NCBI GenBank assembly: GCA_002682825.1
Contig: NOKP01000004.1
Location: forward strand, 79,711-143,710
Source of the DNA: Neonectria sp. B-13
Taxonomy: Eukaryota > Ascomycota > Sordariomycetes > Hypocreales > Nectriaceae
DNA: 64,000 nt
Direction of reading: 5' to 3'
Under the pieces are notes generated by a model, which ran no database searches, had not been told where the DNA came from, and saw only the letters and a program-made list of their open reading frames with translations. The first letter of the stretch is position 1; each line of letters starts with the position of its first letter. Both the position numbers and the translations under genes were made by a program. Of this stretch, positions 879 through 20,436 are shown one piece after another.

Positions 879-978
879 NNNNNNNNNNNNNNNNNNNNNN
901 NNNNNNNNNNNNNNNNNNNNNNNNNNNNNNNNNNNNNNNNNNNNNNNNNNNNNNNNNNNNNNNNNNNNNNNNNNNNNN
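879..978. other. Assembly gap (100 N)
   Basis: Exactly 100 undetermined bases lie inside a purine-rich simple repeat. A run of exactly 100 N is a common placeholder for a scaffold gap of unknown size, so distances across it should not be trusted. Confidence 0.95.
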
Positions 979-1078
979 GAAGGAAGGAAGGAAGGAAGGA
1001 AGGAAGGAAGGAAGGAAGGAAGGAAGGAAGGAAGGAAGGAAGGAAGGAAGGAAGGAAGGAAGGAAGGAAGGAAGGAAA
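979..1078 (+). repeat. GAAG tetranucleotide microsatellite
   Basis: About 25 near-perfect copies of GAAG run directly from the N gap. The left side of the gap (about 836-878) is also rich in GGAAG, so the gap is probably an uncollapsed continuation of the same repeat. Confidence 0.95.
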
Positions 1079-2292
1079 AGAGGAAGGGAAGCACACTGCT
1101 CAATTGAGGAGCGAGCCTTAGCGAGCCTTACCTAATCTGGGGCCTTCCCCCTTGGAAGGAAGAGCGGAGGAGTCAGTGCTGCTCAGGTCGCGCTCGAGCC
1201 ATGTCAAAAGACGATGAATGGATTTTATGATCTCGCTCTTTGACCTTTCCAAAGCCGCGTCAATTCAGAGGCAAGCATGCTTCGATCAACCGACTAGAGG
1301 CCAATTAATAGTGATCACCGTGACTTTTATATACAATAATTGAAACAAGTGATGAATCGCGGCCCAGCTTATGCTGGCCTATTCTGCGACGCAGGCTACT
1401 CTGTCGGCCGCATAGGAACATGGACCAGTCTACAAAGGTTCGCGAACCTGAATCAGGGGCCACTAAAGAAAAGGTGTGGGTTTACCAAACATAAGCTCGA
1501 GTTCTTATAAACAACATCAGTCGATACTTGTCGGCCATTAGACAGCCTCACCGCCAGGTCTGGCCCTTGTCCCCTCTGTGGCCGCGTATGAAGTCGTTAG
1601 CATCGCCAGGAATGAAGTTCTAATGCAAGACATGTCTGCTGTCGGTTGGCGCGGAGTCAACAGGATCATATACTCCAGAGAGCAAGGGTGGATCTGAAGC
1701 AGCCAACAATGGCTCCGGCCCGACCTAGCGCCATTGAGTGCCTGCCAACGTCCGCATGTAAGTCGTTGAAGTCGTGGGTGATGGAGGGCGGCCGACATAC
1801 AGACCTGTGATTGTCTCCAATGGTTAGAGACACGTCAACCATGAATATGCATGATGTCCATCCATAGGCACGTAAAAGCCTCGCTTAGAGATCACCGGGG
1901 ATAGAACCGGCCAGCCTCACTTCTTCTGGCCACATTCCCGGCTCTTCCAAGCCATGTCTAGAACAACACAGTAGTGCCAACAGCAGTATCAGTTGTGGTG
2001 GCTTGCAGGATTGCGTATCCGCCTTCCCTAATACTTCTCTGAGTATCTGCACCTGCTGGTGGAACAACATACCATCCCTGGACTGCAACTAGCATGAGTT
2101 CACAGTCAATGGACAGAGCTCGTAATGGTACCGGATGAGAACGGGTCCGAGGTATAAGGTGGTGTCCTACCCTCCTTGATCAAGACTGGATAGGCATCCT
2201 TCAACACAATACTATCGATCAACCTTCACAGAGTATTCATCTCAGCGTCACATCTCAAGTCGACCAACCCTTCAGCCAATTCGAACGAGTGA
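1079..2292. other. Intergenic, no supported gene
   Basis: About 1.2 kb with only short frames that lack recognisable domains, supported introns or low-complexity coding signatures. I see no tRNA or transposon feature here. Confidence 0.5.
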
Positions 2293-2803
2293 ATGGAGTA
2301 TTCATCTGCTGACGGTAAGTTGCATGGTCTGACTCTCAATTCAAACTAACTTGCGTAAAGGCGTCACCACAGCTATGAGAGTACGACCGAGCGATGATGT
2401 ACCGGATGGGGACGCCGAGTCTGGAAATGATGCAGCCGAGGATATTGATATGGGTGAAGTCTTGAGGCCAGACCCGGCTGTTGACGGCGCTGTCGACGAG
2501 ATACCGGAGGATACTGGTGCAGGCTCTTCGGATGGGTCAATGGATAACACAGATGACCGCTCCACGGATAGCACAGATTCGAGAGAGCGTCCGCACGAGG
2601 ATGTACAGGATGAGGACGCCGAGTCTGGAAATGATGCAGCCGAGGATATTGATATGGGTGAAGTCTTGAGGCCATATCCGGCTGTTGACGGCGCTGTCGA
2701 CGAGATACCGGAAGATACCGGTGCAGACTCTTCGGATGGGGCAATGGAGAGCGCAGATGACGGCTCTATGGATGGCGCAGAGGAGTCGTCTACGAGTGCT
2801 TAG
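2293..2803 (+). CDS. Acidic protein with internal 68-residue duplication
   Basis: I do not recognise a family. The proposed start is a short exon (2293-2314, beginning MEYSSAD) joined to 2361 by a 46-nt intron with a GTAAGT donor, an ACTAAC branch site and an AAAG acceptor. The intron fits well and keeps the frame. The product is about 155 residues, very rich in Asp, Glu, Ser and Gly, with no membrane segment. It consists largely of two copies of a 68-residue unit containing the motif DAESGNDAAEDIDMGEVLRP. Such composition suggests a disordered acidic protein. It could equally be a young or spurious gene created by the DNA duplication, because no homolog comes to mind. Confidence 0.5.
2391..2798 (+). 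repeat. 204-bp tandem duplication
   Basis: Two adjacent units with a period of exactly 204 nt (68 codons), for example GACGCCGAGTCTGG at 2411 and again at 2615. The first 120 bases of the copies are nearly identical and the tails are diverged. The period is a multiple of three, so the reading frame survives. Confidence 0.85.
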
Positions 2804-3791
2804 TGGTCTAAATCGACCTTCCAGGAGTGCCATTCAACGAATACCACAGCCTTTGGGTCAGTTTCCCGGTAGTAATCCAGTTACTCTATCCTTCTCTGAC
2901 TCCATGAGCAAGACGTGTGATTGATGATGGAGCCATGGTGTCGTGCAGGAGGCATCCAGATCTAGACTCATTCCGGGTCACCGCCAGGGGAGGAGACTCA
3001 AGCTGCAGGAGGTCCCGATTACGCACACAGGGGTCATTATTGCAGTGCCCACATTGCCGATGTCTGTGGGGGGATCTTCGGCGAGCCCATCATGGGGATA
3101 CCGTAGTAGCATACAGGAGTATCGGCCCCACCTGCTTGTGCGCACACTACTGGACAGCGGGCATTAGGTACGGCTGGTTGCCGGCGAGCCGGGTTTCTCA
3201 TCCCGATCGTGTTGACTCAAGCGCTCCCAGAAGTCTCACACTTGGCAAGACTTTGACGGCGAGATTGGGGATGCGTAAGTGGATGAAGGCTATGGACTGG
3301 GAATCAGGGGATCAGGCGAGACGACACGACAAGGCACTAAGTAAAAGTGGATCCGGTGCTTTGTATCCGTACAGGACCAATGCCTGAGCTAGCCTGCCAA
3401 GTCATCATTTTAAAATTCGCAACCATGATTGGTCTAAAGCTGCTTTTTTCACTCTCAGCTCTCGCTAACTATACCGCTTTCAATGGCTACAACTCTTGGC
3501 AGGATGGCGACCCATAGACCTCACGCACCCCATTGGCGCACGATCCAAGACACGGCACGTATGCCCGGCACCAAAGCGACTTGCAGCATCAATCTAGTCC
3601 AGGATGTGGTGCTTTGGGGTTGTCATTGCCTCAAACAGGGGCTGCCCGCCAGGCCAATGCATGCAAAGATGGTGTCGGTTGCCTCGGCATGTTCGTTGCC
3701 ATGGTTCGCGGTCATATAATGTCGCAGCCCGCAAGGCTCTGCCTTTCGTTCCCTTGTCCATCCTGCATGAGCCAGGACCAACGCAGCGCCA
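2804..3791. other. Intergenic, no supported gene
   Basis: Nearly 1 kb between the acidic protein and the methyltransferase. A 156-residue frame at 2917-3387 is rich in Arg, Ser and Cys without domain character, and I treat it as chance. Part of the methyltransferase 5' leader may lie near 3400-3791. Confidence 0.45.
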
Positions 3792-5184
3792 ATGGATGAC
3801 AGCCACAGAACCGTAACCCTTTATGCAGGTCGTTCCCTCCCGGCATCGTCACCGATCAGTTCGAACTCGGCAGAGCAACATTCTGAGGAAACCCAGCTTG
3901 AATCAGAGGGACAGGAGGAGGCCTACGACAGCTCCCGCCCCGCCTCACGTCCTTCTCTGGTCAGCTGGACCTCGGCAGAACCCGAGGAGTGGCAAGCAGA
4001 TGACGTTGATTCAACCGCGTTTGAAGACAGCGCCAACCCACCACCACCTCCTTCATCACTGGTGGAAGCAGAGGAGAACCACGACGACAATGATTCGACG
4101 CTGCAGGATGATGCCGCATCTACTACAAGCTTGACCCCAATGGTGCTGGAGTATAGGGAGCTCTATGGCAGGAAGTACCATAATTTCCCTGGGGCTTCCA
4201 CATGGTATGGGCTCTTGTGCGTGAATGAAGATGCCGCTCACACACCCAGGGAGCCTATCGATACAACGCAGCAAGACTTTTTATCGGTGATGTGAGTCGG
4301 CTGTTTCCAGATTGGCAATTGTTGCTCATATGCAAACTTCAGGGACGATATTTGGTTTTATCTCAAGGGTGAAAAACTCTTCAATGCGCCGATACGTCGC
4401 CATCCACAGAAGGTATTAGACATTGGAACAGGGTTAGGTCTTTGGGCAATGTATGCTGTCCCGCCATCGCAATGCGTTCGCTAACCTTCAACAGGGATTT
4501 TGCAGACTCCTTTCCATCTGCAGAAGTCATTGGCACAGATATCGCACCAATTCAGAAAGCCTGGGTACCACCTAACTGTCAGTTCATCTTGGAGGACGCC
4601 GAAGAACTACCATGGGTCTATGGGGACAATTCGCTCGACTTCATTCATCTTCGACAGCTTCCGGGCATGAAGGACTGGCCAAGCCTATTCAAAGAAGCCA
4701 ATCGATGCCTCAAGCCTGGAGGATGGCTTGAGCATACTGATATCGAATTTCACCCGGGGAAAGACCATCCCAGTTGGAGCCAGTGGGCGGTCGCGTGCCG
4801 CGAGGTTCGTGACAAGACCGGATGTTCTTTGACTGGTGGTGAGATGGAAGAGTGGATGTCAGATGCGGGATTAGTTGACATCCAGAAGCGACAGTACAAT
4901 CTGTTTGAGAACCCCGCGGCGGTGCTCTTTCACCACAATATAGACATTGAGGGGAGCATTTTGTGGGCATTCCATAAGGTTTGTGGCAAGTCAACGGAGG
5001 AGATATATGTCCTCGCGGCCGGGATGAGAGACGAGTTGAGACATTCACCGTCCCCTCTGCCTGTTACTGGGTACGTGTTCCTGGCTTATGTATGCCCTTG
5101 GTTTCTTGCTAAGTCGTGAGCAGGTCATGTTTTTGGGGGAGGAAGCCACAACAAACAAGACAAGGTTCAGAGCTCCTCAGTTGA
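3792..5184 (+). CDS. LaeA-like SAM-dependent methyltransferase
   Basis: A class I methyltransferase of the large fungal LaeA/TAM-like family. An N-terminal region of about 115 residues is Ser/Glu/Pro-rich and probably disordered. After it come YRELYGRKYHNF, then exon 2 (4343-4450) with the SAM-binding motif I VLDIGTGLGLWA, motif IGTDIAPIQ, the acidic loop EDAEELPW and LKPGGWLEHTDIE. Introns at 4292-4342 and 4451-4494 fit consensus and keep the frame. The 3' end is uncertain: a third intron (about 5072-5123) would give the stop at 5184, while read-through would stop at 5119. Family members include global regulators of secondary metabolism and many orphan enzymes, and this one cannot be assigned a substrate. 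Confidence 0.8.
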
Positions 5185-5595
5185 CTCCTCTGTTGATTGA
5201 GTGTGAACATAACCAGGAGGCTTCTTGACTCGGCAAAACTGGTGGTCAAGCTTTCCTTTTGCTTCGCATACGGCGTTCGTCTATTTTTAGCAATTGCATT
5301 TTCTCTCATTATCTTTGTGCGTGGGTTTGATTGTCTGCGCCGAGCGAAAGTTAGGGACCGTGGTGTGCGTGGGTAGCCACCCAGTGGGGCGGGACGGCAA
5401 TAGCTTCTTTAATGCAATATTCTTATCATTTGCTGCATATGCCCTGTGCTTGAGTCCAACCTCTTCAAGTTTAACTTCATAACTCGGATAAGCTCAAGCC
5501 ATATGAAGGTTGCATGTGTATATGCCAACGTGGTTTGCACCACCTTCTCCCGCATCCCCTCTCATCCGCAGAATCAAGTTATTCTTCGAGGCGCA
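5185..5595. other. Intergenic, probable promoter
   Basis: About 410 bases upstream of the next gene. An in-frame ATG at 5446 could extend that gene by 50 residues, but the extension is Phe/Cys/His-rich and unlike the rest, so I place the start at 5596. Confidence 0.4.
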
Positions 5596-6692
5596 ATGAC
5601 AACGCCACCTAAATCAATTGACGTCGATGGCAGTTGGGCGGACAGGCAGCAGTCGATCGTGCAACAGCCCATCTTTGCATCTTCTGCCGAGCAAGACCCA
5701 GGAGACCAAGCTACGCCCCAACTGGCCGAGTCGGATGCATTCCAGTTACCCATGACACAAAGCTCTGCTACTTTCATCATCGAAACCCCTCAGCACCCAC
5801 AGCAGCCGCAAGGCAAGTCTGCAAGGATGGCTAGAAAGGCGAAACCCAAAGCACAATGGCTTCGACGGGTACAAACGTTTCTAGCTCACATGCCGCAGGA
5901 AGATTCGGATTGGACCAGCAAGCTGTCATCCGACGATGCAGTCCTCCGTCTCCGCGACCAACTCACGTTGGCCCATCTCGTACAGGAACGCCGAGGTGGA
6001 ATGGACTGGGAGGAGATCTTTTCCGAGTGCTGCAAGCACAAAGCAGCATTTAAAGAAGGGCAACCCGAGGGCGCGTTCTACGAATTGGTCTTTACAGCGA
6101 CCTGCCAAGTGGCATATAAGATGGATTGCAGCGAAGAAGTTGTGAATGCAGCTATGCGATCGTTTTTATCAAGTACTCATCGCGGAAATGAATTTGACGA
6201 CAGGCTTCTCTCGAAGAAGAGAAACGGGGCAGTGCGAGGAATCAAGATGCTGAATATAATTGCCAGCCGCCGTGGCCATCGCTCCTTCGAACTCCCTTAT
6301 CACGGTAGGTGAGCCAACACCTGCATGCATCATTGCTTGCTAAAGACCAACAGATCTTTCATGTCTCACCATGTTCATGCATTGTACAGACGAATGCCTC
6401 CGGTATCTAGAGAAGCATGTTCCCAAAGGTCGAGCCGACTCCGAAATATCACACGAACTCTTCATTCCGCGTCTCGTCCATCGGCTGTTGGGAGGAAAAC
6501 ACTCTAAGTTGAGGTAGGGACAGTATTACCAGCTCAGCATGCCAATTTCTCACAGAACTCGACAGCTATCGTAAAATTTGCAAAAGTTTGGGCACTGAGC
6601 CCAACGAAGCTCTGGTAAACAGTTGTGAGCAGGAGGTTGAAGATCATGATATGGGGAGCGTATTGAAAGAGAATCCTATGAACATAGCTTAG
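5596..6692 (+). CDS. Hypothetical protein, three exons
   Basis: About 319 residues; I do not recognise a family. Exons are 5596-6304, 6390-6513 and 6566-6692, and both introns have GT..AG ends and restore the frame exactly. The first 75 residues are Pro/Gln/Ser-rich and probably disordered. A basic stretch MARKAKPKAQWLRR leads into a helical middle containing WTSKLSSDDAVLRLRDQL and MDWEEIFSECCKHKAAF, and a later basic part DDRLLSKKRNGAVRGIKML. No signal peptide or membrane helix is visible. The arrangement could fit a nuclear or DNA-associated protein, but that is a guess. Its stop codon overlaps that of the convergent minus-strand gene. Confidence 0.6.
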
Positions 6693-7257
6693 TTGCCCTT
6701 ATCCCCGCCTTCGATACCGCCTTTTGGTTCAACTTTGAGTAGACTGTAGAGAAATCTGATTCTACCTTCCTTCACGTTAAGTCCCGTCTCGTCAAGGTGC
6801 AGAGCCCACTTAGAATTCCACTGGATGTTGCGCTCAGACTTCTTGCCCCGGGCAACAAGTACAACCTCAACCACGCCGTTGAAAAGTGGTGCCAGAAGTG
6901 CCGTATAGCCATCTGCCGGCCATACGATGCCGCCAGGCTCGAGCCGGAACGCCTCCGGTTGAAGTTGGGGTCTTTCGAGGTCCTCCACGGTCTTGCCGAC
7001 ACTACTGGCCCAGTTTTCGATGTCGGTAGTCTCTCCGGGTGAGCAAGTATGATGAAAGATGGGCGGCTATAACCTACAGTAGCTCTGAGCAAAGCAGAGA
7101 ATAGCTCCCGACATGGATCTGGCAAGCCGTAACCCCACAGGCTCTTTCTTGTCTCGACCGCGCTCAGGGTCAGGACCTCCGTAATGGCGCCTTGTTTGAG
7201 GGGTTGAAGTTCATTGTTCAAGTGGATCCACCTGTAAGAGATCAAATCATCCGGCAT
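6689..7257 (-). CDS. Hypothetical protein, two exons
   Basis: About 173 residues, no family recognised. Exon 1 begins MPDDLISYRWIHLNNELQPL. An intron of about 47 nt (GTAGGT donor, TGCTCAC branch, GAGAG acceptor, about 7033-7079) joins it in frame to a region reading TTDIENWASSVGKTVEDLE. A C-terminal half follows with a predicted strand-rich stretch around LLAPLFNGVVEVVLVARGKK. No signal peptide, coiled coil or cysteine motif is present. The TAA stop occupies 6691-6689, so it overlaps the TAG of the convergent plus-strand gene at 6690-6692. Confidence 0.55.
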
Positions 7258-7854
7258 CTTGGATGCTGTTAGGTGTGAACATCTGCCAAGGTGTGTGTGT
7301 CCTCAGCTATCATACGTGGGGGCTTGTCGCCTTAGGCACCGGAAGCGGAACCACGCACCACCCCACTACCGAGGGTCGATGAAAATTCACTCAGGGTAAT
7401 TGCGGTTAAACTAAAGGCATCCTATTCGCTTATGCACGGGCGTATCACGTACAGGGAACTCCGCTTGGGTCGGATAGCTTGGTCGAATGCAGATAAGCAG
7501 GTGTCCCAGCTAAAGGTGCGGGGTGGTATGATGGTCGTAATCAACTGGGATCGGTCTCCGTCGATCCATGCGGCAAGCGCCTTATTTCGGGCGCCACTAG
7601 CCTAGAAGACCGCCATGAGTTGTATCCATCAAAAACGGCATCAGGGTGGGTCTCTGCCCTCATGCTATACCTCCAGGGGTGTTCAGCCAAGCCTTTGACT
7701 CGTGACGTCTCTATGCCATCGAATACATATAACCTCTCAATCCAGAGAGGCAAACTGAGTGCTTTATCCCACCAGAATGCACTCTCTTGGAGCCCCTTGA
7801 AACTCATCGTTATTCACCGATCCTTCTCGGTCAGGCCCAGTATCTCTGAAAATC
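7258..7854. other. Intergenic, no supported gene
   Basis: About 600 bases between divergent genes. An 88-residue minus-strand frame at 7541-7807 has no recognisable features. This is presumably the shared promoter region. Confidence 0.4.
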
Positions 7855-8877
7855 ATGTTGAACCTCCCACTCGAACCGCGGCTGCCATCCAAGCTCGTCA
7901 CCATGGTATTCTTCTTGAACGCCTCGGTAGCAGCCCTGGGGATCATCATCGTGGTCTCGCGGGGGTGGTATTGCCTCCGGTACCGGGTCTGCAAAAATGT
8001 CTTCGCAGTTCTCTCCTGTTGCCATTATGCGGGCGTCATATTATCATCCATCATTTGCCTTGTCTACCACAAATACTCTTATCTCCTGGTGACGGGTATC
8101 TTCTTGGGAATTTTCCAGACGGTGAATATTCAGAGAAGTCTTGCGCCCATGAAGATTCTGACGATCTTAGCGGCTTGTGTCCATCCGAAAGCTAAAGATC
8201 ACAACCACAAGGCTTCTAGGGATCCTGACCACCACCATACTGGTGTTCGCGGTTCTCCTCGTGGGCAGCTTTCTTGCAGAGTCCGGGCAAATACTCGGCT
8301 CTGTAGTGACCCTAGTGGTGATCTTGGGACACCGAGTGTGGTCAATCCTTGATGGATGGATTGCTCTGCCTGCCAAACCTAGGCGCCTTGCGAACTGGAA
8401 AGGCACTTATTTCTCCTCCATGTTCTTGGTTGAGTTCGTTGCACTGTTTGCGACGCCATCTGCGTTATGCCTCGACTCTTACGAGAAATATTTGCTTGTA
8501 GGTTGTTTCAATCTCCTGTGAGCCCAGGCTAAATAAATTAGGTCCTATGGATTATTAACCTCGTTCCTGGATTGCTCTGGGCCCCAATGTTGTGGAATTC
8601 CTATGTACGGCCAGAACTCCACAGCCAGGAGGCGATTTCAAGCACAACAGAGCTAGTGTCAATGCGAGATCGAACGCAGGAGGCAGGTTCTCCCACTGAA
8701 GTCCATGACGGCATATGGACTGAAGACGAGGAAGACGAGGAAGAAGATGAGCAAGACGGGCAGAGGCAGCGAGATAGATTAAGGAGAGCTCATCGTCGCT
8801 TAAAGATTAGAATGAAGTCCACAGAGGTACTTCGGTATGTTCCCAGGCGGTATCACCGCCTACATAGTGTGGCATGA
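7855..8877 (+). CDS. Seven-helix membrane protein
   Basis: About 309-311 residues in three exons, 7855-8121, 8171-8497 and 8542-8877. Intron 1 (49 nt) and intron 2 (44 nt, GTAGGT donor) both restore the frame. About seven hydrophobic segments can be seen, including VAALGIIIVVS, VILSSIICLVYH, LVTGIFLGIF, ILVFAVLLVGSFLA, VVTLVVILG, FLVEFVALFATPS and LWIINLVPGLLWAPM. The tail is cytoplasmic-looking, with an acidic run TEDEEDEEEDEQDG followed by a basic Arg/Lys stretch. The topology is receptor- or channel-like, but I cannot name a family. The fit of the splice sites to the hydrophobicity pattern makes the gene credible. Confidence 0.65.
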
Positions 8878-9322
8878 TGATGACGCTCGATGGCCGAGAA
8901 AATTGAACTCAATATCTTATGCAAGTAGAGCTGTTTCCCCCCAAATCTAATCGCTCGTATCCCTCCGTTCCGATGTTAAGAGTAAGGGCCTCCCGCTCGA
9001 CCCGTACCTCAAGTCAAGGGGAAGGGGACAGGGGAAAGGGGAAAGAGGGAACATCGACCGTCACTGCCCGGCACTAAGCCGTCTTTGATGGATACAACTC
9101 TTGGCCAGCCCATAGCTCCGAGACGCTGCATTCAGCTAAACGCCACAGCTGGACAAGGGGTCGTTGCTGGACTCGACCCCCCTCCACCAGAAGGACTTGG
9201 TTTAAAGCTTGGGCTGGTTCTCAGCTTTTAGTGACTGCTCGGAGTGCCGCACGACCTGAACACAGCTCTTTACGTCGCATTACTTTACCTGGCCATCTTT
9301 TAGCAAGCTATCAACCGAAGCC
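8878..9322. other. Intergenic with purine-rich tract
   Basis: Contains a strongly G/A-biased stretch at about 9016-9051 (repeated AAGGGG-like units), followed by what is probably the 5' leader of the bZIP gene. No gene seen. Confidence 0.5.
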
Positions 9323-9781
9323 ATGCAGGATCATCGCATCTACCACGACCACCACGGGCAACCATACATGCCGCCAGCTCCATCATTCCCACCTGATGTT
9401 CCACAAATGCTGCTGCAACTCCCAGGGAATGATGAGGCGCTTTCCGTGCAAGTCTCCACGGCCTCAAAGGAACAAACTAGCAAACGAGCTCGGGGCGCCA
9501 TCAACTCGGCACGCTTTCGCGAGAAGAAGAAGAAGGACGAGGAAGTGTTGAAGGAAATTCAAAGGCTCAAGGATGAGCGGCCACGGATCCAGGCGGAGAT
9601 TCAGCAGTTGACACGCGAACGAGACCATCACCAGAGTGAGTGCAGCCGGTATAGGCAGATTCTAGAAGAGGCTGGGGTCACCGATAAATCACTGTCAATA
9701 AAACCGCCGCAAGCACAAGGAGGAGTGCAAACAGCACAGGACCGTCCTCGTAGGACGTGGAAGAATACTATTTTAGACTAG
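9323..9781 (+). CDS. Small bZIP protein with altered basic region
   Basis: A single-exon protein of 152 residues. A Pro/His-rich N-terminus precedes a basic region at residues 54-74 reading KRARGAINSARFREKKKK, then a leucine-zipper-like helix with heptad positions V75, L82, I89 and L96. This matches the fungal bZIP type whose usual core is RNTAASARFR. The position that is nearly invariant Asn in bZIP factors is Gly58 here, while the later Arg (R66) is kept. The loss of the base-contacting Asn could change specificity or make a non-binding dimer partner. There is no obvious activation domain, and the protein is short even for this group. Confidence 0.75.
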   Translation: MQDHRIYHDHHGQPYMPPAPSFPPDVPQMLLQLPGNDEALSVQVSTASKEQTSKRARGAINSARFREKKKKDEEVLKEIQRLKDERPRIQAEIQQLTRERDHHQSECSRYRQILEEAGVTDKSLSIKPPQAQGGVQTAQDRPRRTWKNTILD

Positions 9782-10212
9782 GAAAGGAAGAGCCCAGTGC
9801 CTCGATATATCCTGCTCGTCAACAAAGCATTCACCACCGGATCGCCTAAGAGGAGATTGGATAGGCATTGGTAGGGGCATTAGTTCTATTGTATTTCTTT
9901 GTTTTACTCTTTGGATAATAATGCTTTGCTCTCTCAGACCTTCCCAATTATTCGAGACCTGCATGACTGCGCCATCGTAATCCTACGCCACGTCATGCCA
10001 GATGTCCAGATGCTTCCCATAGGCGTGAGGATGCCCTCAGACCAACGCAGCGCTTGCCTAGACCAGGTATTGAGGGCCAACCAACGCCGCCAAGTTTCCA
10101 GGGAGCACAACACCACGAGCTCGTATTCGGTCGATCGGCAAATTTTCTGCTCTAGAAATCGCGCAGCACAAGTTGGAGCTGTTGTCCATCTCCCAGGCCA
10201 AAGGTGCATGGT
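9782..10212. other. Intergenic, no supported gene
   Basis: A frame continues from 9899 into the carrier remnant, but its first 100 residues resemble nothing I know and lack carrier repeats. I see no independent gene. Confidence 0.4.
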
Positions 10213-10580
10213 GTTGACGCCTTATGAACTGTCGAATTGGGCAACGACCAGTGGTGCCGCCGGCTGCGCCAAGCTGGCTGCGGTGCTGGTCACATATCCT
10301 CACGAGGTGACCCAACGAACTAAACCGATTGCTAGGCACGAGCTCACCTTTCACACAGGTTGTACGAACCCGACTACGCCAGGCGCCGACGGAGAATGCG
10401 AAGCCAAGATATACCGGCCTCATCCAATGCTTTAGATTGGTGTGGATCCGTGAGGGTTGGCGCGGCTTGTATGGTGGCCTTACACCACATTTAGTGCGCT
10501 CGATTCCGTCAGCTGTGATTACCCTTGGTGTTTATGAGTTTATTCTGCGACTCGCCAGCCCATGTATTAATTCTGTATGA
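10213..10580 (+). pseudogene. Mitochondrial carrier C-terminal remnant (Rim2-like)
   Basis: Only the last third of a mitochondrial carrier (SLC25 family) is present. It reads SGAAGCAKLAAVLVTYPHE, then an intact 52-nt intron (10307-10358), then VVRTRLRQAP, a short loop, YTGLIQCFRLVWIREGW and RGLYGGLTPHLVRSIPSA, ending at a TGA. PHEVVRTRLRQ is the third-repeat carrier signature, and the wording is closest to the pyrimidine-nucleotide carrier Rim2 as I remember it. Carriers need three repeats of about 100 residues, and the preceding 400 bases show no trace of repeats 1 and 2. I infer a truncated copy left by duplication or rearrangement. The intact intron argues for a genomic rather than a retro-copied origin. 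Confidence 0.75.
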
Positions 10581-10784
10581 ATCCTGTATTATAAGTGCGA
10601 TTTGGAGCAGCGTATTAATGGCAAATCCGGTCAGTTGACTCCAAGACTCTACCATACAGTTCATTGCACGACAAGGTGATGCCATTATTCTGAAGTTGCA
10701 ATGTAAGAACTAGCTATAGAGTAAGACAAATTCATCAAGACCAATCTACTAAGCCCTTACATCAACTGTAACCTCCACTGGAAC

Positions 10785-11463
10785 TCACGTGGCTCTCTTG
10801 CGAGGTTCATCCTTCGTTGTATCATGCTTTCGTTTAAGGCGGCTGACATGTGGCGGTACATCGATTGCAGTAGGTCGAACTTCCTTGTCGGTTATGGTTG
10901 TTACCTTTGACAAATCGATGAGTGAGACGAGATACTCTCCAGCTCTGTTCACTATATTGACCGCAGGGACATTTTCTGATACACCAACCCGTATAGACTG
11001 CTCTTCATAAGTGCAGCCCTCTAGATTGCAAGGGCGTAGATCAGCTAGAAGGGATTCGATGTGTGATGGCAATGGGCTGTTGGATTCGGTGTAATCGTCA
11101 AGGATTTCTGCCCTGGTCATGGCCGAGCAGTTCGGACAGTAACCACAGATAGCGCATGCAGTGCAGCGGTGCTGCTCGATCAGGGTTTCAGCGGTATCGC
11201 AACAAAGCTTCAGGCTCGTTAGCAAGTAACCTTTTGGAGTGAGCATTTCTACTTGCAAGAGCAGAAGCTGGGAAGCGCTGTGGCGAACAGGGCTCATCGG
11301 GTAGCCGTGGCTCATCATGTAGTGATGGCTTGTCAGGCAGTCGTGGCTCGTCAGGTAGTGATGGCTCGTCAGGCAGTCGTGGCTCATCAGGAAGCCGTGG
11401 CTCGTCAGGCAGCCGTGGCTCATCAAGTTGGAGAGGGTAGGTAAAGGGGCTCTGGCTGGGCAT
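10785..11463 (-). CDS. Hypothetical Cys-rich protein with DEPRLP repeats
   Basis: No family recognised. The ATG at 11463 opens a frame beginning MPSQSPFTYPLQL that runs into about eight copies of the hexapeptide DEPRLP, with variants DEPSLP and DKPSLH. The downstream part, in another frame, looks genuinely coding. It has a cysteine cluster CTACAICGYCPNC, a helical middle EILDDYTESNSPLPSHIESLL, then CNLEGCTYEEQ and a basic nuclear-type tail RLKRKHDTTKDEPRKR. Linking the two requires an intron, and a 58-nt one with a weak GTTCGC donor and TGCTCAC branch would work. Alternatively an ATG at 11423 gives a single exon of 212 residues, in which the repeat is read as SHDCLT-type units. Confidence 0.45.
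11288..11425 (-). repeat. 18-bp coding minisatellite
   Basis: Seven to eight imperfect tandem copies of an 18-bp unit, GACGAGCCACGGCTGCCT on the minus strand. The unit is a multiple of three, so copy-number change keeps both the DEPRLP and the SHDCLT readings open. Confidence 0.85.
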
Positions 11464-12297
11464 AGTAGATGTAATGGAAAACAATGTGAGTGTGAAGGAA
11501 GGATGACGAGGAAGATTGTAGTTGGGGGATGGACAGATTCTTATACTTGTCTGAGCGGCGCAGAGTCGGGTCCGGGCGAACTTTCCTACGACACCATTCT
11601 TACGTATTGGTTGCCTCCTTCTGGTCATTGCATTCGACGACGCATTGAACAGGGGCCTCGGTCAATAGACTACTAGCCCGTGGCGTATGTCCGCTCTTGG
11701 ATATCCCTGGTGACCGTGGCATCAATCTCTTTAGCCTATCTCATAGCGTTCCCGCCATACGAGGGAACGGATCAAGGCCGAGCCCTTTCCCGCACGCCTT
11801 TATATGGACGATCTCAAGGATCTCCCAGCCTTCGCTTCCGTTGGGCCGTAGATCCAGGAAGACCTGATATGACATGTCACAGGTTGCTTCGCAGCTCCAT
11901 CAGGGTTAACAAAGGCCAATCAAGCCCGTGACGCATCCTGCTTGCCAATACTTTCGGCATCCCGACTCACAGCCTTCGCATGGTGGGGAGCTTCCACAGG
12001 GTACTCCGAGACAACACGTCATGCAAGCATGCGGACAGTGGCAAGGGTGTGTGCTCCCGAACAGGACTTTCGCGTGTTCTTGGGAGCTGGCGGGGGCACA
12101 CGGCATAAGTACCGTCATCTGCCACCTCTCACGCTCGAGAGGTAATATTAACAACTCTTCGGCAATCTGGATCTGTATTCACTGCCATGGCGTTAAAACT
12201 CTACCAGCGGGCTTTAGCCATTTCGTTTTATATCCTCAGCACCTTTTCTGATCTGATCTTCGTTGAAAAGTTTCGGACGCAGTTTTACCAGATTAAA
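11464..12297. other. Intergenic, no supported gene
   Basis: About 830 bases between divergent genes. The plus-strand frames here are short and featureless. Near 12187-12290 there is an in-frame upstream ATG for the next gene. Confidence 0.4.
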
Positions 12298-13106
12298 ATG
12301 GCTAGCTATCCTCCCGGGTCATCACCACAACCAACCGCTTGGTGGTATACGAACAAATTGACTTTCTTCGGTCTCGGCGTTCTTGAATGCCTTGCCGCTT
12401 TCGGACTCGAGATTGGTGGCCTTATCAAGACTTTCACGGCTCCCGACGAGACACACTGGCCGCTCATCTTCCTCACAGCGATCGTTATCTCAGCCATGGC
12501 TAAGGAGGTGAGCTGATAGATCAGCCATTGAGGACGCATGGAACTAATTGATTAAAGTATCTATGGCTAGCCGGTACTTTCGGTCCTGGAATGAAGGCAT
12601 TTTGGCCTTGGTCTCTAGCACTGATGTGGTTCTCCACGGCTGCCGCTTTTTCTGTTAGCATTTTTGTGAAAAAGGGGCTTCACATCGTTTCTTTGACTTC
12701 TATATTCCTATTTCAGATCTTCAAAGTACTTCAGTGGGGCAACACTATCAGAAGTGTACAGAGACATCAAATTAGGAACCTGCTGCGTGCTCTGTTGGAT
12801 ATTATAGCCCTATGGGTGAGCAGCTTGAGTACTCTACTAGAGTCGCAAGTCGATAGGTTATTGGTAAGTTTTAAGAGTATTTCAATGTTCGCAGCTGATA
12901 GTTTAGCTTTTCGCGGCTGTTTTCGTTATTCACAGCTTAATCTCCGATATACCATGGATCATCATCAACAAGAGGAAGAAGTCTATGCAAGGCTCAACGA
13001 CCGGGTCCTTGTCAGAAATTCCTCTCACTTTGGTCTAGAGGTACTCTGGGTATGGGCAGGAACTTGCGAGAGGGATATCACAAGGAAGCAGGGAAGGTGT
13101 GGTTGA
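12298..13106 (+). CDS. Multi-pass membrane protein of unknown function
   Basis: Exon 1 (12298-12507) begins MASYPPGSSPQPTAWWYTNK and carries two hydrophobic segments. A 50-nt intron (12508-12557) joins it in frame to YLWLAGTFGPGMKAFWPW and three further segments around LMWFSTAAAFSVSIFV, HIVSLTSIFLFQIFKVL and LLRALLDIIALW. The 3' structure is unclear. A GTGAGC donor at 12816 could splice to an acceptor near 12859 or 12937, or the frame could simply read through to 13106. The topology and the WW-rich loop between segments resemble small fungal DUF-type membrane proteins, but I cannot name one. An ATG at 12187 would add 37 residues. Confidence 0.55.
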
Positions 13107-13677
13107 GTTCTGAAGGAGATAAAGGGGCGGCGGCTTGACCATGATCTCGTTTTCTTTAAGGACAGTGGTTCGAGTGGTTTGGTACGAAATAAAGTCATAT
13201 TTCCCCGGATAGCAACGTGTAGTTTAGTCTATTCCTACTCCTCTGGCTCGTCCTTTCCTCCTTCTTTGATTTAAGGCTCAACAAGGCTGATGGATTTAGT
13301 TCTAAGTCTAGTTCTACTATTAAATCGATGCGCTACTCTTCACTCGTTTCAAAATTCCCACAGTCCCGTCTCACCTTGGCTGACTTCTGGAACGGCATTT
13401 GCCCGAGAGCACATCTAGACAGAGTTTCGAAACTGCCTTATAGGGATGTTTCCAGCAATCTAATGCAGAGACTGTTGAGCCCGCAGAATTACCACAGTAT
13501 ATACGCACATTCATTTAGCCATTTCATAGACAACAGCTAGACAGCTATCAACACACTTGGTTACATTGAATCTACTATTCTATCATTACCTGACTGTAAC
13601 CTACATTGTTCACTACGGCGTCCTAAACCGCCTGTTCAAACGATCCCATGTCTCGGGCCTACCCTGCAGCCGCAATA
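13107..13677. other. Intergenic, no supported gene
   Basis: About 570 T-rich bases between convergent genes. I see no terminal inverted repeats, although this would be interior sequence if the recombinase gene belongs to a mobile element extending leftwards. Confidence 0.45.
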
Positions 13678-16600
13678 TCAGTTCAGAGAACGCCCGGATG
13701 TAGCAAACTCTTGCACTCGTCGGCGACTAATTGTCGACTCCTTCTCCCACGAGTTATCACCAATAGGGCGGCCCTTCCATCTTACCAGATACTCGGCCTT
13801 TCCCCGCCGCATTCTTTTCTTAAGGAGCTCCACGCCTTCATGATTTCCCCCATTGTCTAAGAAGCTTGCATCGAACTTGCTAACAAGCTCATCACTGATG
13901 TCGTCCCTCCTCTGCCACGAGTTCGCGTCATCGGAGAAGCTTTTCCACCTCACAAGATATAGGGTCTGCCTTCCTTGCTTCCATTTGGCCAACAATCGAT
14001 CCACTTCCCAAATATCTTCGTCTGCGTCAATAGGTTGACCGACTTGGGCCCCTTCGAGGTAGCTTTGGGTAGAGGACAATGTATTCCCCTCTATGCTCTT
14101 CAAATGCTCCTGAGAGTGCTGGTCCACGAATAGCTGTGGATCGATCATGTCTGGGTTCTCAGATAGAGACAACATGGCTTGCAGCTTTTCGCTGGCTCGA
14201 CGTCCTTCACTGTAGCCATGCTCATGGCCTCTCGTTGCCGAAGCCTCTGGCTTCTCCGTTCTGATCACCAAGGCGGGTTGTAGGAGACCTGGATTCCTTT
14301 CGGAGATGTGATCCTCAAAGCTGGTGAGATTTGAATTGTTGTGTGGGGGCGTCGAGGGGCAATTCGATGGGTCGTGCTCTTGGGGCGTTGGATTGAGCCC
14401 ATCTGATGACGAAACAGGCCATAATGTTACGTCGTCGTTTCCTTCCGGAGCTGTCAAGAGCCTAGGTCTTTGATTCTCCACTTCCATGTCTTCCCAGGAG
14501 GCAACCGTCCAACGCTCTAACGACCCAGAACGTAAAGACATATCGTTTCCCTGATTTGAGTAAACAGTGTTGGCAGAGCTGACGCAGAGAGACGAAGGCG
14601 GTGTGTCTGAGCCAGGGATACAGTCATGTTCATCCCAGACATGGTCAGGCTCACCAATACCTGGTGAGGAGGATGTGCTGCGCTCTCTGGGAACTTCGGG
14701 AATCGCCTTGACGTCAGATGATATCCAACCGACAGAACGATGATAGGCGCCGCCCTTACAGAATCCATCGTAGGTTTGGTCTCCGCCGACTTGAAACTGA
14801 GCGCGGAGCTTTTTGGTCGGCGGCGAGTTCTCATCGTCGCCTTGGCCGTCCTCATTCTGTGACTTGCGCTTCTTTGTAGGCTCTCGGGAAACGCTATGAA
14901 CGTCCTCGAGATGGATCCACAACTGGTCCGGGGATTGAGGCATAACTGGACATTCTGGGTGCGGGCAAGATAAGTTGCTGGGGTTAGGTTCGGCCTGGAT
15001 GTACCGCTGGACGCATGTTGAGACATGACGCTGCCAACCACTCTTATCCCAGAATTGTTGCAAACGCCGGTGTGCAGGGCATTCCTCCTTTCCAAGGTGA
15101 ACAGGACAATACCCAGCACAAGCGGTGGCGTTGCGGAAGAGAACCGGATCGCAACGAAATGGTAGCTCTTGGTTTTCGATGTGATTTCGACAGTGGCTGA
15201 GCCATTCCGGCTCACTTTGTACCCAGCAATTGCAAAGAGAACAAAACTGAACAGAGGAGTTATGTTTGCGGTAATGTCGCTCCCAGCAGCGGAATACATG
15301 CTTCCATCTTGTCTGGTTTCGAAGTGGGATACTGTGACAAAAAGGAGTATGTGAGCGTTCATGACTTCTTGTTACCTGCTAGCGAGTGGGTTTTGTTACC
15401 TTTCCATGTCCGTATCACAAGAGGGGACTGGACAGGTGCCCTGAGATGGGCGCAGTTTATCCTGATATGCAATGCGACAAGGATTTGTTCGAAGAGCGAT
15501 GAGGTCTTGGAGAGCCGATAGTCCTTCACGGCTCCTCAGGGGTACTGCCGAGAACAAGGTGTGAGAGAGCCGCTCGCGTTCCGGTAACAGGTTCATAATA
15601 CGAGCAAAGTGACCGTGACGCCAGTCACCCTGCTCATGGCGCTTCCGTTCGTTCGAGTACTCCAAGGGTTGGCTTTTTTGTACTTCCCGTAACTTGGCAT
15701 TTTCCAGTCGCCGTCTCTTAGTGTAACACTGTTTCCGCTCAGCCTTGAGTTGCTCTCGGGTGGCCTCGGGGATCCCTTCGTGATCTATCTGGAAAGTGAG
15801 ATTCTTGATGGTTTGTGAGAGCTTCATCCAGTCATCCTGCTGTGCCAACTCCGTTCGAGCTTGGGCTGAAAGACTAAGAGGTAGATCCATTATCCACCTC
15901 ATAGATGCCGAGCGGAAATCTTCGGTGAGGTCTTGTCGGACATCCATGCCTAGAAAGCAACCTGCCCCATCGATCGTATTCATCGGCCCGAGGTAGCTTC
16001 TGCGCAAGACTGCCGAGTTCTGCTGGTCGGCATATTTCAGGATCTGCTCGATCGATGCTCCGCTATCTGACCCTGAGTGAGCTAGCTGTGCGTGATTCAT
16101 CGTTCAAAATTGCCTTACCATTGACTTTAAGAAGGGATTCACGACGCGAGCAGTGCATACCACAACCATCGACGAATCCAGCCCGTTTCGCCCATCTTGA
16201 TGATTGATGGCTCCAGTTGCCAGGGCTTCGAGCAGTGACCTCGGGCCCATCCACACTCCAGTTGGGGAAAATTGGAGTTTCGAGCATGTCGTCTTTCCAT
16301 TCAAAAGTCCGATGACTGCGATTCTTGGGCGGTGTATACTTGAGCATATCCTCAAGGGTCGGGTCACCTTTTATTGCTCCGGATGAGAGGAAATTGGCCA
16401 AAAAGAACAGGATCGGTTGCGCATACAAAGGCGGTGGACCACGGTTTGACGAGAGTCTCTCATACAAGATGTGCTCTGGCCTGGCTGAAGGTTAACGATC
16501 ATAACCAGGATTCAGCAAAGTTTTGAAAAACTTACTGCTTCTTGTCTTTTCCCTTACAGACTCTTCTCTGTATTTTCAACTTCAGTTCTGGCTCCCCGTC

Positions 16601-17369
16601 CTTCCATCCTACTAGGAAGACGACATCCTACCATCACAAGGTCAGTACACTAGAATAGCAGCAGCTCAGCGATCTCATACCTTGTACTTTGCCTGACATA
16701 GCTCCGAAAGTCGAGCGGAGGTGTAAGAATGAGTGTTCAGGAGAGTAGCATTGTCCACGCGGTAACCTTCATGGATATACTCGTGATGATCACTGAACCA
16801 CAACTTCTCTTGAAGCTTGACGTAATTTTCAGTGGTGAGGAATCCTTGTGCTCGGTTAATGTTTTTCAAGCCAATCTTGTCGGCGAGTTCGCCTTCGATG
16901 TACTAAAGGGAGTCAGTGGTGAAGTCGGCATAGTGATAATCTGCGAGAGGTTGACGCGGCTTACAGGGGCCATTGAGCCAGTGACCACCTTGGGTATGGT
17001 TTCGTGGTTCTCTCGTTGCCAGTTGCTATAGAATCGACGCATCTTGTTTCGAACAGTGTCGGTAGTCGGGAGCTGATTCTCCTTGTCCAACTTGCCAACG
17101 GTCCCGAGGGCCACAAACTCAGCGAAATGTTTCATCACTTGCATGTCTTTGGGATCAGAACGGTCGAATTCCTTCTCATACCTGGAGTCTGTTAGGCGAG
17201 TTGCTCAAGGTAAACCGGGGCCATTGTGTACTAACTGTTCCCAGAGTGCCAGGTCTCTGTCATAGAACTCCTGGCTTTTCGGCACAAGTTTTCGGCGCAC
17301 AACATGAGGGCTGATTGCACTCCGATTGCTACTGAATCCTCTCTGCTTAGCTAAGGCAAGAATGCCCAT
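13678..17369 (-). CDS. DUF3435 tyrosine recombinase with zinc fingers and tandem chromodomains
   Basis: Predicted protein of about 1120 residues in seven exons: 17369-17236, 17181-16965, 16902-16681, 16627-16536, 16480-16119, 16081-15400 and 15331-13678. All six junctions restore the frame. The N-terminal half matches the DUF3435 family (often misnamed FluG-domain), which includes the captain recombinases of Starship elements. Tyrosine-recombinase boxes are visible: TSARLSELCQAKY (R181), HCSRRESLL (H331, R334) and RRSYLGPM (Y372). A C-terminal module follows, with CPVPSC, a C2H2 finger at C600/C603/H616/H620, and another at C692/C697/H710/H715. Residues about 730-1000 are Ser-rich and disordered. 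Two chromodomains close the protein, at about 1009-1060 (LYLVRWKSF) and 1066-1116 (EYLVRWKGR). The full tetrad suggests an active enzyme. The chromodomains could steer integration to marked chromatin (inference). Confidence 0.85.
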
Positions 17370-17593
17370 GGTGGCCTTGTTTGGTGATCGGTTGAGCAGA
17401 ACGTAAGTCTAACCTTAGAAGGTGGTGATAGGGAAAGGCACAGGATGATGGTTGGAGTCAAGGACTGATGGTAGAAACACTCTTGTACAGCTGATGGAAG
17501 AAGGGTTGCCCAGGCTTTTATGTTCATTCTTGAGCTATGGTAAGAACGCAGACTTAGACAAGATGTCCACCCATCCTGCATGCCGCAGACACA

Positions 17594-17671
17594 GGAGGGG
17601 ATGCAGGGTTGTCGAATTCGAACCCCCCCTCAACCCAAACCCCTACCCTTGGTAGTGGGGCTGCATCCTCC
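17594..17671. repeat. Nested inverted repeats upstream of the recombinase
   Basis: The outer arms are GGAGGGGATGCAG (17594-17606) and CTGCATCCTCC (17661-17671), complementary over 11 bases with a 2-base gap. Inside lies a second pair, CCCCTACC (17640-17647) and GGTAGTGGGG (17651-17660), complementary apart from one unpaired T/G interruption. The structure sits about 225-300 bases upstream of the recombinase start, where the 5' end of a captain-led element would be expected. Confidence 0.65.
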
Positions 17672-17717
17672 CACGTACCCGCCCAACTTGAGCCTGCCGG
17701 ACTACATACCCTGCCGC

Positions 17718-17766
17718 CTGAGCTCAACCCGAGCTCGGACTGAGCCAGCCCTGAGCCGGCCTGAGC
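17718..17766. repeat. Four CTGAGC direct repeats
   Basis: CTGAGC occurs at 17718, 17740, 17751 and 17761, with GAGCTC also twice nearby. Short spaced repeats like these occur at transposase or recombinase binding ends, but they could also be chance G/C-rich sequence in the 3' flank of the neighbouring regulator. Confidence 0.5.
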
Positions 17767-17781
17767 AAAAGCGGCGACGGA

Positions 17782-20436
17782 TCACGTGGAAGAATCGTCT
17801 AGATTCGTGGCAGATAACAACAAATCTGCTCCGTCACGAGACATTAGGTCCGGAACCCGATCCATGGATTGAATGTATGCATCAAGCTGAAGACTGGTAT
17901 CATTGAGCTGATCCATGCCCTTCTTGATTTCCATTTGACTGTACTGCAATGCAACGTCGTAAAGAACTTCGAAGTGACGGTGGATATTGGCGTTGGCTTC
18001 CGAATGGAACCGAGCTGTCTCCAAGGAATTTACGAACACTCTCAAGCGATCGAGGTCATCCGATGGATCGTCCATAGTCTCAATGACATGACAAAAGATA
18101 ACAATGAAAGGTATGAAGGGATTGTAGAGAATGGTCCTAGATAACGGAAACGCAGTATAAATTAGCCTTTACTCGATGAACCCCGTGTGTTAGAAGGACA
18201 TCATCTCACCAATTGAAATATACATCGATATGGCGACAATTCTTCGACCTTATTGCCTCGCAAAGTTCTTGGTGTTTGTCAAGTGCCGCCCTCGCTACAT
18301 CGATGCATTTCGACGTGAAGCTGCTCCCTGACTCCTGGCTAGGAGGCAGGGCTTTTAGTATTAAAGTCAAAGTGCATAGGAAGAACACATCCCCTGTGTG
18401 GAAGAGCAATGGTTTCTTGCCCTCCTCAATAGTGTGCTCATTACTGGCCGAGGTTGGCTAGGTAAGAAGTCAGAATATCAAGATGGACTGGAGCGGGCAT
18501 CTGCAACGCGGAGCCGGGGATTTCGCTCAAACTTACCTTGCCAACCTCATCTATTCCACTGTTCCATACAGATCTCACCTCCTCGGATAGCGAATGTGCC
18601 CATGTCGTTCTCGCAGTTTGGGGCTTGGCCAACGCAGCAGGACTATAAAGTAATTTATACACCTTTCCCTGAATACTCGACAGCTTGATCCACTGCACAG
18701 CACAGGAGCTAGCTCTGCCAGCACTGCTATTTGATTCAACTTCGGGCAGTGGCATGGTAATGTCATAGTCTGGTATAGATGATGACGGCCGTCCCAGACG
18801 AACAGAGAGGCCCTTTTCTATGCTGTAAATATGCCAGAAGACCCAAGCCTTCTGTCTTTTGATTACAGGAGTATCACCATTTATGGAAGATGCCCGATGA
18901 AGGCCAGCAGCAAGACACATGTTGAGAGCGGTGGCGACCAAAGAGCAGGCGGTCGAAATTTTCGAACATGAAATGGCATGAAAGACCTGTAGATGTGATT
19001 CGAGTCAGCGCTGGTCAGCTAGCATCCTTGTGTGAAGAGAGGGGCTCGGTCGCCAGAACTTCCAAACAGGGGCAGCCTACCCCAAACAAGAGAGCTATAG
19101 TGTAGTCCAATGTACTTGGCATGTGAAGTGGGAGTTGTGAGAGGGCAATCTCGAGGTTTGCCTGGCATGCTTTCATGTATTGTTGCATCTCCCGACGTGA
19201 GTGATCCATTTCCTGGAGGATGCTACTCTTGAGAAATACGTCGATCAGTCCCCCATTGACGATTATGAAATCTGCAAGGCTGTAATCTCCATCTATGGAG
19301 TAGACCTTGCGAACAGACTCCGTAAAGCTCTCAACGGTTAGGAACATGTGAAGTCCAGCACGTTCAAATTGAGGATCCTCTGAAAATCCAATGTCAGTTA
19401 TTGGTTTAAACATGGAAATCTCGGACTCACCCTTCATAGTTTGTAAAGCCTTCATGACGGTGTGGGCGGGAGGCATCGGGTTATCCCCTGAAGACAGGGG
19501 ACGCATGGGATTTGGATGAGCACGTTGATTGGCTGTCTCATGATGGTTTGACATCCTGTTCTGTCCTCCAACAAGAGCGCGAAGTGTGTCCATAGTCTCT
19601 GAGCGGTAATCTTTGAGCGGTCCTTTATAGACGGCAGTTTCCAGCAAGCCATGTGCAAGAGCTGCGTCAGTGGATATCGTGGAATATTCTTCAAAGAAAA
19701 TATGAGGGGTGATTGAAGTGTGTCTGATGGACGGCGCCGAGTGTGACGGCGCTGAAATCCCGGGACTAGCGAGGCCATGGGTGGCTTCTGTGAATTGATC
19801 ATATGAGGGATCCCCATGTGCCAATGTCAAGCTGGTGTTGTTATGGGATAGTAATTCGATTACTTGCTGCAGTCGACGGTCGATGCTATCGATCTTTTTC
19901 TCGCTGAGCAAAGATTAGCCAATTCGCCAAGTACCAAGGTGTGAGATAAAGAAGCGTCGTACTACTGGGCAGAGACGTGAATGCGCTGCACACCGGTGGG
20001 TGTCCGTTGTCGATCTCTATACCGGCACTCCGCTCCTGTTTTGATACAGGACGAGCAGGGGTCATTTCTATCACAGCCAACCTGTATAAGGTTTCTTGCG
20101 TGAGTATGGATGCCACAGAGAAATAGTAAGATGGAGGTTACCTTTCGTTGCCGACAAGCGAAGCACTGATGGGATGCCCTCGTTAGCAATCTGCAGATAA
20201 CTTGGCAGACATGCACCACGTCGCAAGACAAGCGAAATGAGGCAAAAGCCCATCCCATTTCCTCTAGACTACTAGTATAGTGTGGAGACTTACTGCTAGG
20301 CGAGGCGCTTTCCACGTAGGGGCTAGGCTCGATGTTGACTGTCGTGTGGCCTGCACCTTCTCGTCAGCCGAGGCAGCGTCCATCTGCTCGTGTGAATCGT
20401 CAGGCTCCACGGTGGCCATGATCGTGTCATCAGCCA
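17782..20436 (-). CDS. Zn2Cys6 transcription factor with fungal_trans domain
   Basis: The start at 20436 gives MADDTIMATVEPDDSHEQ. After introns comes a complete binuclear zinc cluster CFACRQRK/VGCDRNDPCSSC/IKTGAEC (spacing C-x2-C-x6-C-x5-C-x2-C-x6-C), interrupted by an intron exactly between RQRK and VGC. A linker/coiled-coil region KIDSIDRRLQQVIELL follows. The middle region shows the fungal_trans features MVATALNMCLAAGLHR, KRQKAWVFWHIYSIEKGLS and LGRPSSSIPDYDI. The end carries the typical PFIPFIVIFCHVIET motif, followed by DDLDRLRVFVNSLE. The protein is nuclear with unknown targets. It is transcribed in the same direction as the recombinase, whose ATG lies 412 bases beyond this stop. I find no evidence tying it to the catabolic cluster. 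Confidence 0.85.

Follow-up and report, generated by a model that had tools for sequence, protein, structure and literature searches.

Captain gene model

The stretch analysed here, called the window, comprises 64,000 nucleotides of Neonectria sp. B-13 DNA and carries three features: the 5' part of a mobile element, a minus-strand gene of seven exons near its edge that very likely encodes the captain of a Starship-type transposon, and a host regulator gene cut by that edge (Table 1). Splicing the window reproduced to the residue the frame-consistent, 1120-amino acid model of the earlier note, in which a single acceptor needed revision. Homologs read N-D-x-G at a position where that model has N-AHSGS-DSG, five residues too many, and we therefore moved the intron-5 acceptor 15 nucleotides further on, which shifts the start of exon 6 from 16081 to 16066 and lengthens intron 5 from 37 to 52 nucleotides. 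The corrected captain thus has 1115 amino acids, and its nucleophile is renumbered from Y372 to Y367.

Table 1. Features of the captain locus. Positions are those of the window, with positions on its contig, C61, in brackets where given.
Feature	Position	Strand	Basis
Captain gene, 1115 aa	13678..17369	-	Spliced model and homolog comparison
Captain exons 1-4	17369-17236, 17181-16965, 16902-16681, 16627-16536	-	
Captain exons 5-7	16480-16119, 16066-15400 (corrected), 15331-13678	-	
DUF3435 match (tyrosine recombinase)	15673..16830	-	Pfam, conservation, Cre-like fold of two homologs
Catalytic codons R181, E184, K216	16711-16713, 16702-16704, 16553-16555	-	
Catalytic codons H331, R334, Y367	16153-16155, 16144-16146, 15993-15995	-	
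Putative zinc-finger region, about four Cys/His clusters, C554..H710 (1115-aa model)	14896..15434	-	Ligand conservation
Chromodomain 1, cage W1006, W1027, F1030	13870..14010 (C61:93580-93720)	-	Profile match, alignment, homolog fold
Chromodomain 2, cage not kept: G1064, V1065, W1083, R1086	13705..13827 (C61:93415-93537)	-	Profile match, alignment
5' 17.8 kb of mobile element, 5' end 17819, running to lower coordinates and probably beyond the window	1..17819	-	Recurrent edge
Direct repeat TGTTA, 5' junction	17815..17819	-	Also at 3' junction, C55 (L057 4731-4735)
5' terminal inverted repeat core GCCACGAATCTAGA	17798..17811	-	14/14 identical, inverted at C55 end
Subterminal region with CTCAGG repeats, likely recombinase-binding	17620..17797	-	Sequence
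Host Zn2Cys6 / Fungal_trans regulator gene, approximate span, cut near 3' end	17820..20360	-	PF04082, ortholog P0021

Element ends and the split host gene

In a comparison with the 60.9-Mb genome, matches stop at window position 17819 in C91, C39 (271k), C20 and C53, and within two bases of it in C44. The edge, TGTTATNTGCCACGAATCTA, is common to six loci with unrelated flanks, the window included; a mutated copy on C36 is a tentative seventh, and in the copies on C99 and C39 (156.7k) the match ends before reaching the edge. The captain ATG (17369) lies 450 bp inside the edge, and the gene reads inward.

The edge interrupts a Zn2Cys6 regulator gene (PF04082) in its final coding segment; in Dactylonectria estremocensis, where an ortholog is intact (P0021, 75% identity), the sequence goes on as LLLPGLAFRDQPMENDWHGS. 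The missing 3' end of the regulator is found at C55:4730-4843 (71% identity), directly after the other element end, where the junction reads ...TCTAGATTCGTGGC-GTAATTAAGA-TGTTA-CCTGGG; among the matches listed, none within the window was a convincing candidate for the rest of the gene. When the flanks are joined at a single TGTTA, the resulting empty site, which is computed and compared with another species' ortholog, reads in frame through DGADLLLPGLAFGDQPMGDEWHGSHIWFQPNQENWGLGDGSQY to a stop, like the intact P0021. The interrupted regulator has lost its last 36 codons and has an element-encoded new C-terminus (SATNLDDSST). Transporter and metabolic-enzyme ORFs lie beside the split coding gene in the insertion neighbourhood.

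The two element ends have a 14-bp inverted repeat in common (the longest word shared in 300 shuffles was 11), and elsewhere in the window no convincing inverted copy of the 5' end was found. CTCAGG occurs three times at window 17620-17819 and five times at L057 4531-4730, 200 bp being considered at each end; unlike the inverted-repeat cores, all of these copies are in element orientation at both ends. TGTTA is exact at five of seven 5' ends (window, C91, C39, C20 and C53), C44 having TGCTA and C36 TATTC. The 3' end matches eight loci and is readable to its end in seven (C55, C97, C113, C105, C51 and two on C39; C108 stops short), four with an exact TGTTA and three with one mismatch. Mirror matches on C20, C36, C55 and C105 were counted once.

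Because the gene begins so close to a sharp, genome-recurrent edge and reads inward, and because the host gene is interrupted by an element whose two ends both carry TGTTA and matching inverted repeats, the captain identity put forward in the earlier note is strongly supported. The Starship hallmarks found here are a DUF3435 gene, a captain near the edge, direct repeats, and terminal inverted repeats, which are present in some Starships.

Size, content and copies of the element

If the ends of C61 and C55 belong to one insertion, 97.5 kb of C61, from base 1 to the edge, and 4.7 kb of C55 would lie between the two halves of the regulator gene, and the element would be at least 102 kb long. An element of about 6 kb (11670-17819), prompted by matches on C77 and C99 that both end at 11670, was rejected on two grounds: past that point C77 and C99 run on side by side in sequence other than that of the window, and C55 has an element end at which the inverted repeat and TGTTA are followed by the remainder of the split gene. 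Window 11670-13259 matches C77 and C99 at 91-94% with different adjoining DNA, perhaps as a result of reshuffling inside the element.

Accessory genes of Starships include DUF3723, NLR, patatin-like and ferric reductase families, of which DUF3723 and patatin were searched for here. A DUF3723 gene, one such family according to the available part of PMC12506042, is present at C61:54769-56323 in three pieces, one of which has two stops inside (introns or decay), and patatin had no match on C61. A genome-wide PF00385 search gave at least 17 matches, of which only the captain's two are listed on C61 and none on C55; among the matches listed in both searches, no PF00385 lies within 60 kb of the other DUF3435 loci of this genome.

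Relative to the window gene, the copy on C99 differs at 278 of 3151 aligned coding bases and has 12 in-frame stops, and that on C91 differs at 157 of 2625 and has 4 stops, its match ending before the chromodomains; captain fragments are found on C49, C39 and C36. Among these close copies only that in the window has kept an open reading frame. More distant captain relatives (27-36% identity) occur on C108 and C110; the latter, at C110:57856-60254 (27-33% identity), bears a chromodomain. A copy of about 1.9 kb at C39:269.68k-271.60k (L063/L032) has both element ends, with cores TGTTA and TATTA, and no captain match, and is likely to be a non-autonomous mini-element. Matches on C20, C36, C55 and C72 come in mirror pairs whose paired coordinates sum to the total contig bases plus 1, and perhaps those on C50, C54, C56, C63, C65, C81 and C87 do as well; such contigs are probably palindromic through an assembly artefact.

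Domains of the captain protein

A Pfam scan of the captain at E values up to 1 reported two families, both expected from the earlier note: DUF3435 (PF11917; residues 142-478, E = 7.3e-15, 55.3 bits against a cut-off of 25.8) and Chromo (PF00385; E = 3.9e-17), the latter in two stretches that bear out the two C-terminal chromodomains read from the sequence before. No zinc finger was matched at this threshold. In an alignment of 37 rows (the window captain and 36 relatives), the four catalytic positions proposed earlier are conserved among non-gap rows, the tyrosine under its new number: R181 in 30/30, H331 in 34/34, R334 in 33/34 and Y367 in 36/36. The Cre-like E184 (30/30) and K216 (28/28) are kept as well. 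Arginine and glutamate, lysine, histidine and arginine, and tyrosine follow in the same order and at nearly the same spacing as in the active-site set of Cre, given as R173, E176, K201, H289, R292 and Y324 in the part of PMC12506042 available to us.

Two of nine relatives scanned (P0049 and P0050) also match PF00589 Phage_integrase, below its cut-off, over the H..R..Y part. Structures were predicted for two homologs, P0008 (from an alignment of 32 of the 36 relatives' sequences) and P0050 (29 sequences); their best full-length fold matches are Cre, XerA and XerH, with lambda Int for the second model only, and the H..R..Y segment has a pLDDT below 50 in both models. These matched recombinases are prokaryotic or phage proteins and, unlike the captain, have neither zinc fingers nor chromodomains. 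A search of the PDB by sequence with P0008 matched chromodomain proteins and no others.

Between the recombinase and a low-confidence linker sit about four conserved Cys/His clusters, most of their ligands being kept in about 20 or more rows. The earlier note had described two C2H2 fingers (C600..H620 and C692..H715); the residues are as it named them, but the clusters number about four rather than two.

As the reference for the chromodomain cages we used HP1, whose cage we take to be Y24, W45 and Y48; Y24 is named in the titles of matched structure entries. Chromodomain 1 has aromatics at the three cage places in 28/29, 31/32 and 20/22 of the rows with a residue there, the third place being a gap in 15 of 37 rows and reflecting a real shortening in some (P0009, P0013). 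In chromodomain 2 the first place is taken by G (27/27) and, for the most part, V or I, the second is aromatic in 26/27, and the third is mostly R (16/28). Since the cage is kept in the first and not in the second, chromodomain 1 is likely to be a methyl-lysine reader, a candidacy drawn from its residues, and chromodomain 2 is likely not to be one. The chromodomain 1 fold of the homologs is HP1/Polycomb-like, with an rmsd of 1.0 Å over 52 residues to Chp1 (3g7l); H3K9me3-bound structures of HP1 and Chp1 are among the nearest solved folds, and Polycomb/CBX chromodomains (H3K27) are about equally close.

Relatives and distribution of the fusion

The captain was compared twice with a set of 5.8 billion proteins; the searches, each scoring its best roughly 8000 candidates, returned at least 36 relatives, 20 from the first and 16 more from the second. 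According to precomputed Pfam columns, 15 of the 36 carry both domains, 21 Chromo and 26 DUF3435; many of those without both are short or broken models, so a missing Chromo annotation does not amount to a true absence. The fusion thus recurs in other genomes, where the earlier note had proposed to look for it. Relatives with both domains span three classes: Sordariomycetes (to which we assign Fusarium, Neonectria, Apiospora and Thelonectria), Leotiomycetes (Hyaloscypha, by a lineage check, and presumably Pseudogymnoascus and Chlorociboria) and Eurotiomycetes (Fonsecaea, lineage checked). A Chromo-only relative comes from Cirrosporium, of the Xylobotryomycetes by the same check, which also covered Dactylonectria, the genus of the regulator ortholog.

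A tree was built from 23 of the 37 rows, all of them relatives of this captain, short or broken models and near-duplicates having been left out. The window captain pairs with that of Neonectria ditissima (95/100), and this pair joins three Fusarium proteins (100/100) in a group that leaves out the rows from Gibberella / F. oxysporum and from Thelonectria; support is weak at the deepest forks (66/67). Fusarium graminearum, entered as Gibberella zeae, has a homolog of the captain (P0009). Identity between the captain and its Neonectria ditissima homolog is 90%, and the best regulator ortholog, from Dactylonectria, reaches 75%; this is a hint of horizontal movement and only a hint, because the two comparisons use different species.

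Target site

At about 1.1 copies per kb in the host part of the window (52 in 46,180 bp, both orientations), TGTTA is far too common a core to choose the site alone; a second key is therefore likely to be needed. All 14 element-end flanks (179-300 bp each) have a GC content of 0.41-0.53, with no sign of AT-rich, RIP-type heterochromatin, which on this base composition would not be favoured as the target.

At the 3' ends, 5 bp of variable sequence separate RTAAT from TGTTA. Across five such ends (C55, C97, C113, C105 and C39; C51 and the second C39 end were left out for their other spacing), these 5 bp show 15 of 50 pairwise agreements, much as flanking DNA does (53 of 200), and are enclosed by a conserved RTAAT (46/50) and TGTTA core (42/50). 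In the two elements whose ends could both be read, window/C55 and C39:269.7-271.6k, the 5 bp at the 3' end differ from the 5 bp that precede TGTTA at the 5' end, and for this reason a target duplication of 10 bp, made up of these 5 bp and TGTTA, was rejected for both. Tn916, a conjugative transposon, carries coupling sequences over from site to site, and by analogy the variable 5 bp look like a carried-over coupling sequence.

A captain that may read both DNA and chromatin

The reading that we prefer, with a probability of roughly 0.55, is that the gene is the captain of a Starship-type transposon, that this transposon split the regulator at TGTTA, that recombinase, zinc fingers and chromodomains act within one protein, and that landing likely takes place where TGTTA and a methylated histone tail coincide. 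Such a choice of site by chromatin plus DNA is suggested because a single predicted protein joins the recombinase, the likely zinc fingers and the two chromodomains. Cutting and rejoining at the TGTTA core would fall to the predicted recombinase domain (R181-E184-K216-H331-R334-Y367), and binding of the element's subterminal CTCAGG / GCCACGAATCTAGA repeats to the zinc fingers; chromodomain 1, its aromatic cage intact, would anchor the complex at a methyl-lysine mark, and the cage-less chromodomain 2 would serve as a partner surface. Chromatin-guided insertion would be a reasonable outcome of this anatomy, a cage-competent chromodomain 1 being present in most relatives. It would not be guided by chromatin alone, as the DNA word TGTTA is used too.

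The captain could instead be real and its chromodomains protein-protein surfaces, used to dimerise, to recruit host factors or to control the silencing of the element itself, and not site choosers. Chromodomain 2, which lacks the cage and has a conserved motif of its own, the 14 end flanks without composition bias and the position of the insertion in a regulator gene would all suit that role, which the retention of the cage aromatics of chromodomain 1 in nearly all rows nevertheless makes less likely. It is improbable that the chromodomains direct the element to H3K9me3 heterochromatin in the manner of chromodomain-bearing retrotransposon integrases, a precedent cited in the available part of PMC12506042: HP1 and Chp1 bound to H3K9me3 are among the close solved folds, but Polycomb/CBX folds match about equally well, none of the 14 flanks is AT-rich, and the coding gene that the window insertion interrupts has transporter and metabolic-enzyme ORFs as its neighbours. 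That the element has died or been domesticated and only carries its chromodomain tail along, as its broken close copies on C99 and C91 might suggest, seems very improbable to us, given that the window copy is fully open with its catalytic, zinc and cage residues, that both element ends match around a perfect direct repeat, and that the Neonectria ditissima homolog is so similar. That two neighbouring genes were joined into a chimera by a model whose introns were placed by hand is scarcely credible, as one uninterrupted exon of 1654 nucleotides holds most of the zinc clusters and both chromodomains, and 15 of 36 relatives have both Pfam domains in database protein models.

Comparison with known systems

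The earlier note was aware of no described captain with tandem chromodomains. The literature searched bears this out as weak evidence, most subscription journals lying outside its scope: no captain fused to chromodomains was found, including in the available parts of PMC12506042, PMC11857905, PMC11623301, PMC12134995, PMC10799480 and PMC12289983. Unnamed database proteins with the fusion do exist, however, and elements with a chromodomain gene of its own, far from the captain at the opposite end, have been published. A literature search for Starship with Neonectria gave no paper.

Two published elements are closest in anatomy, as described in the portions of the papers available to us. Sanctuary, in Bipolaris sorokiniana, has a captain of 786 amino acids about 350 bp from the edge, a 6-bp direct repeat, and a separate chromodomain gene in its last 3.1 kb, at the opposite end from the captain (PMC12506042); Frontier, in Alternaria ventricosa, likewise has a separate chromodomain gene opposite the captain (PMC11857905). 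Like both, the present element combines a DUF3435 captain at one edge, a short direct repeat and an element-borne chromodomain protein. It differs from Sanctuary in the distance of captain to edge (450 against about 350 bp) and in the direct repeat (5 against 6 bp), and from both in that the chromodomains form the C-terminus of the 1115-amino acid captain instead of a far-end gene. Where Cre has its histidine, the published active site of Sanctuary has Y (PMC12506042); the captain here has H331 at that place. With Hephaestus HhpA, an ordinary captain, it shares the DUF3435 domain, and a Cre-like fold has been published for HhpA and Sanctuary (PMC12506042). The Frontier authors suggest that a minimal transposition unit may consist of the terminal regions, the captain and the chromodomain protein (PMC11857905), and for Sanctuary the idea that the separate gene targets heterochromatin is described by its authors as purely speculative (PMC12506042).

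The fusion is a variant of a known Starship type, linked to this published puzzle. More tentatively, and with slightly more doubt than belief, we propose that a whole old Starship lineage fused a chromatin reader into its captain, giving it two keys, TGTTA through the recombinase and a histone mark through chromodomain 1. Captain and reader would then be one integration machine, which would explain the far-end genes, and the variable 5 bp at the 3' end would have been carried from the previous site. If so, the fusion would account for the separate chromodomain gene kept by other Starships and argue that it is part of the transposition machinery. How Starships choose their landing sites, and whether chromatin plays a role, is the question that the fused captain addresses, and with the reader in the same chain it can be tested on one protein.

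The integrases of retrotransposons such as chromoviruses belong to a different enzyme family, the DDE integrases. Chromoviruses and Maverick elements nonetheless resemble the captain described here in bearing a C-terminal chromodomain on the integrating enzyme, as reported in the available part of PMC10799480.
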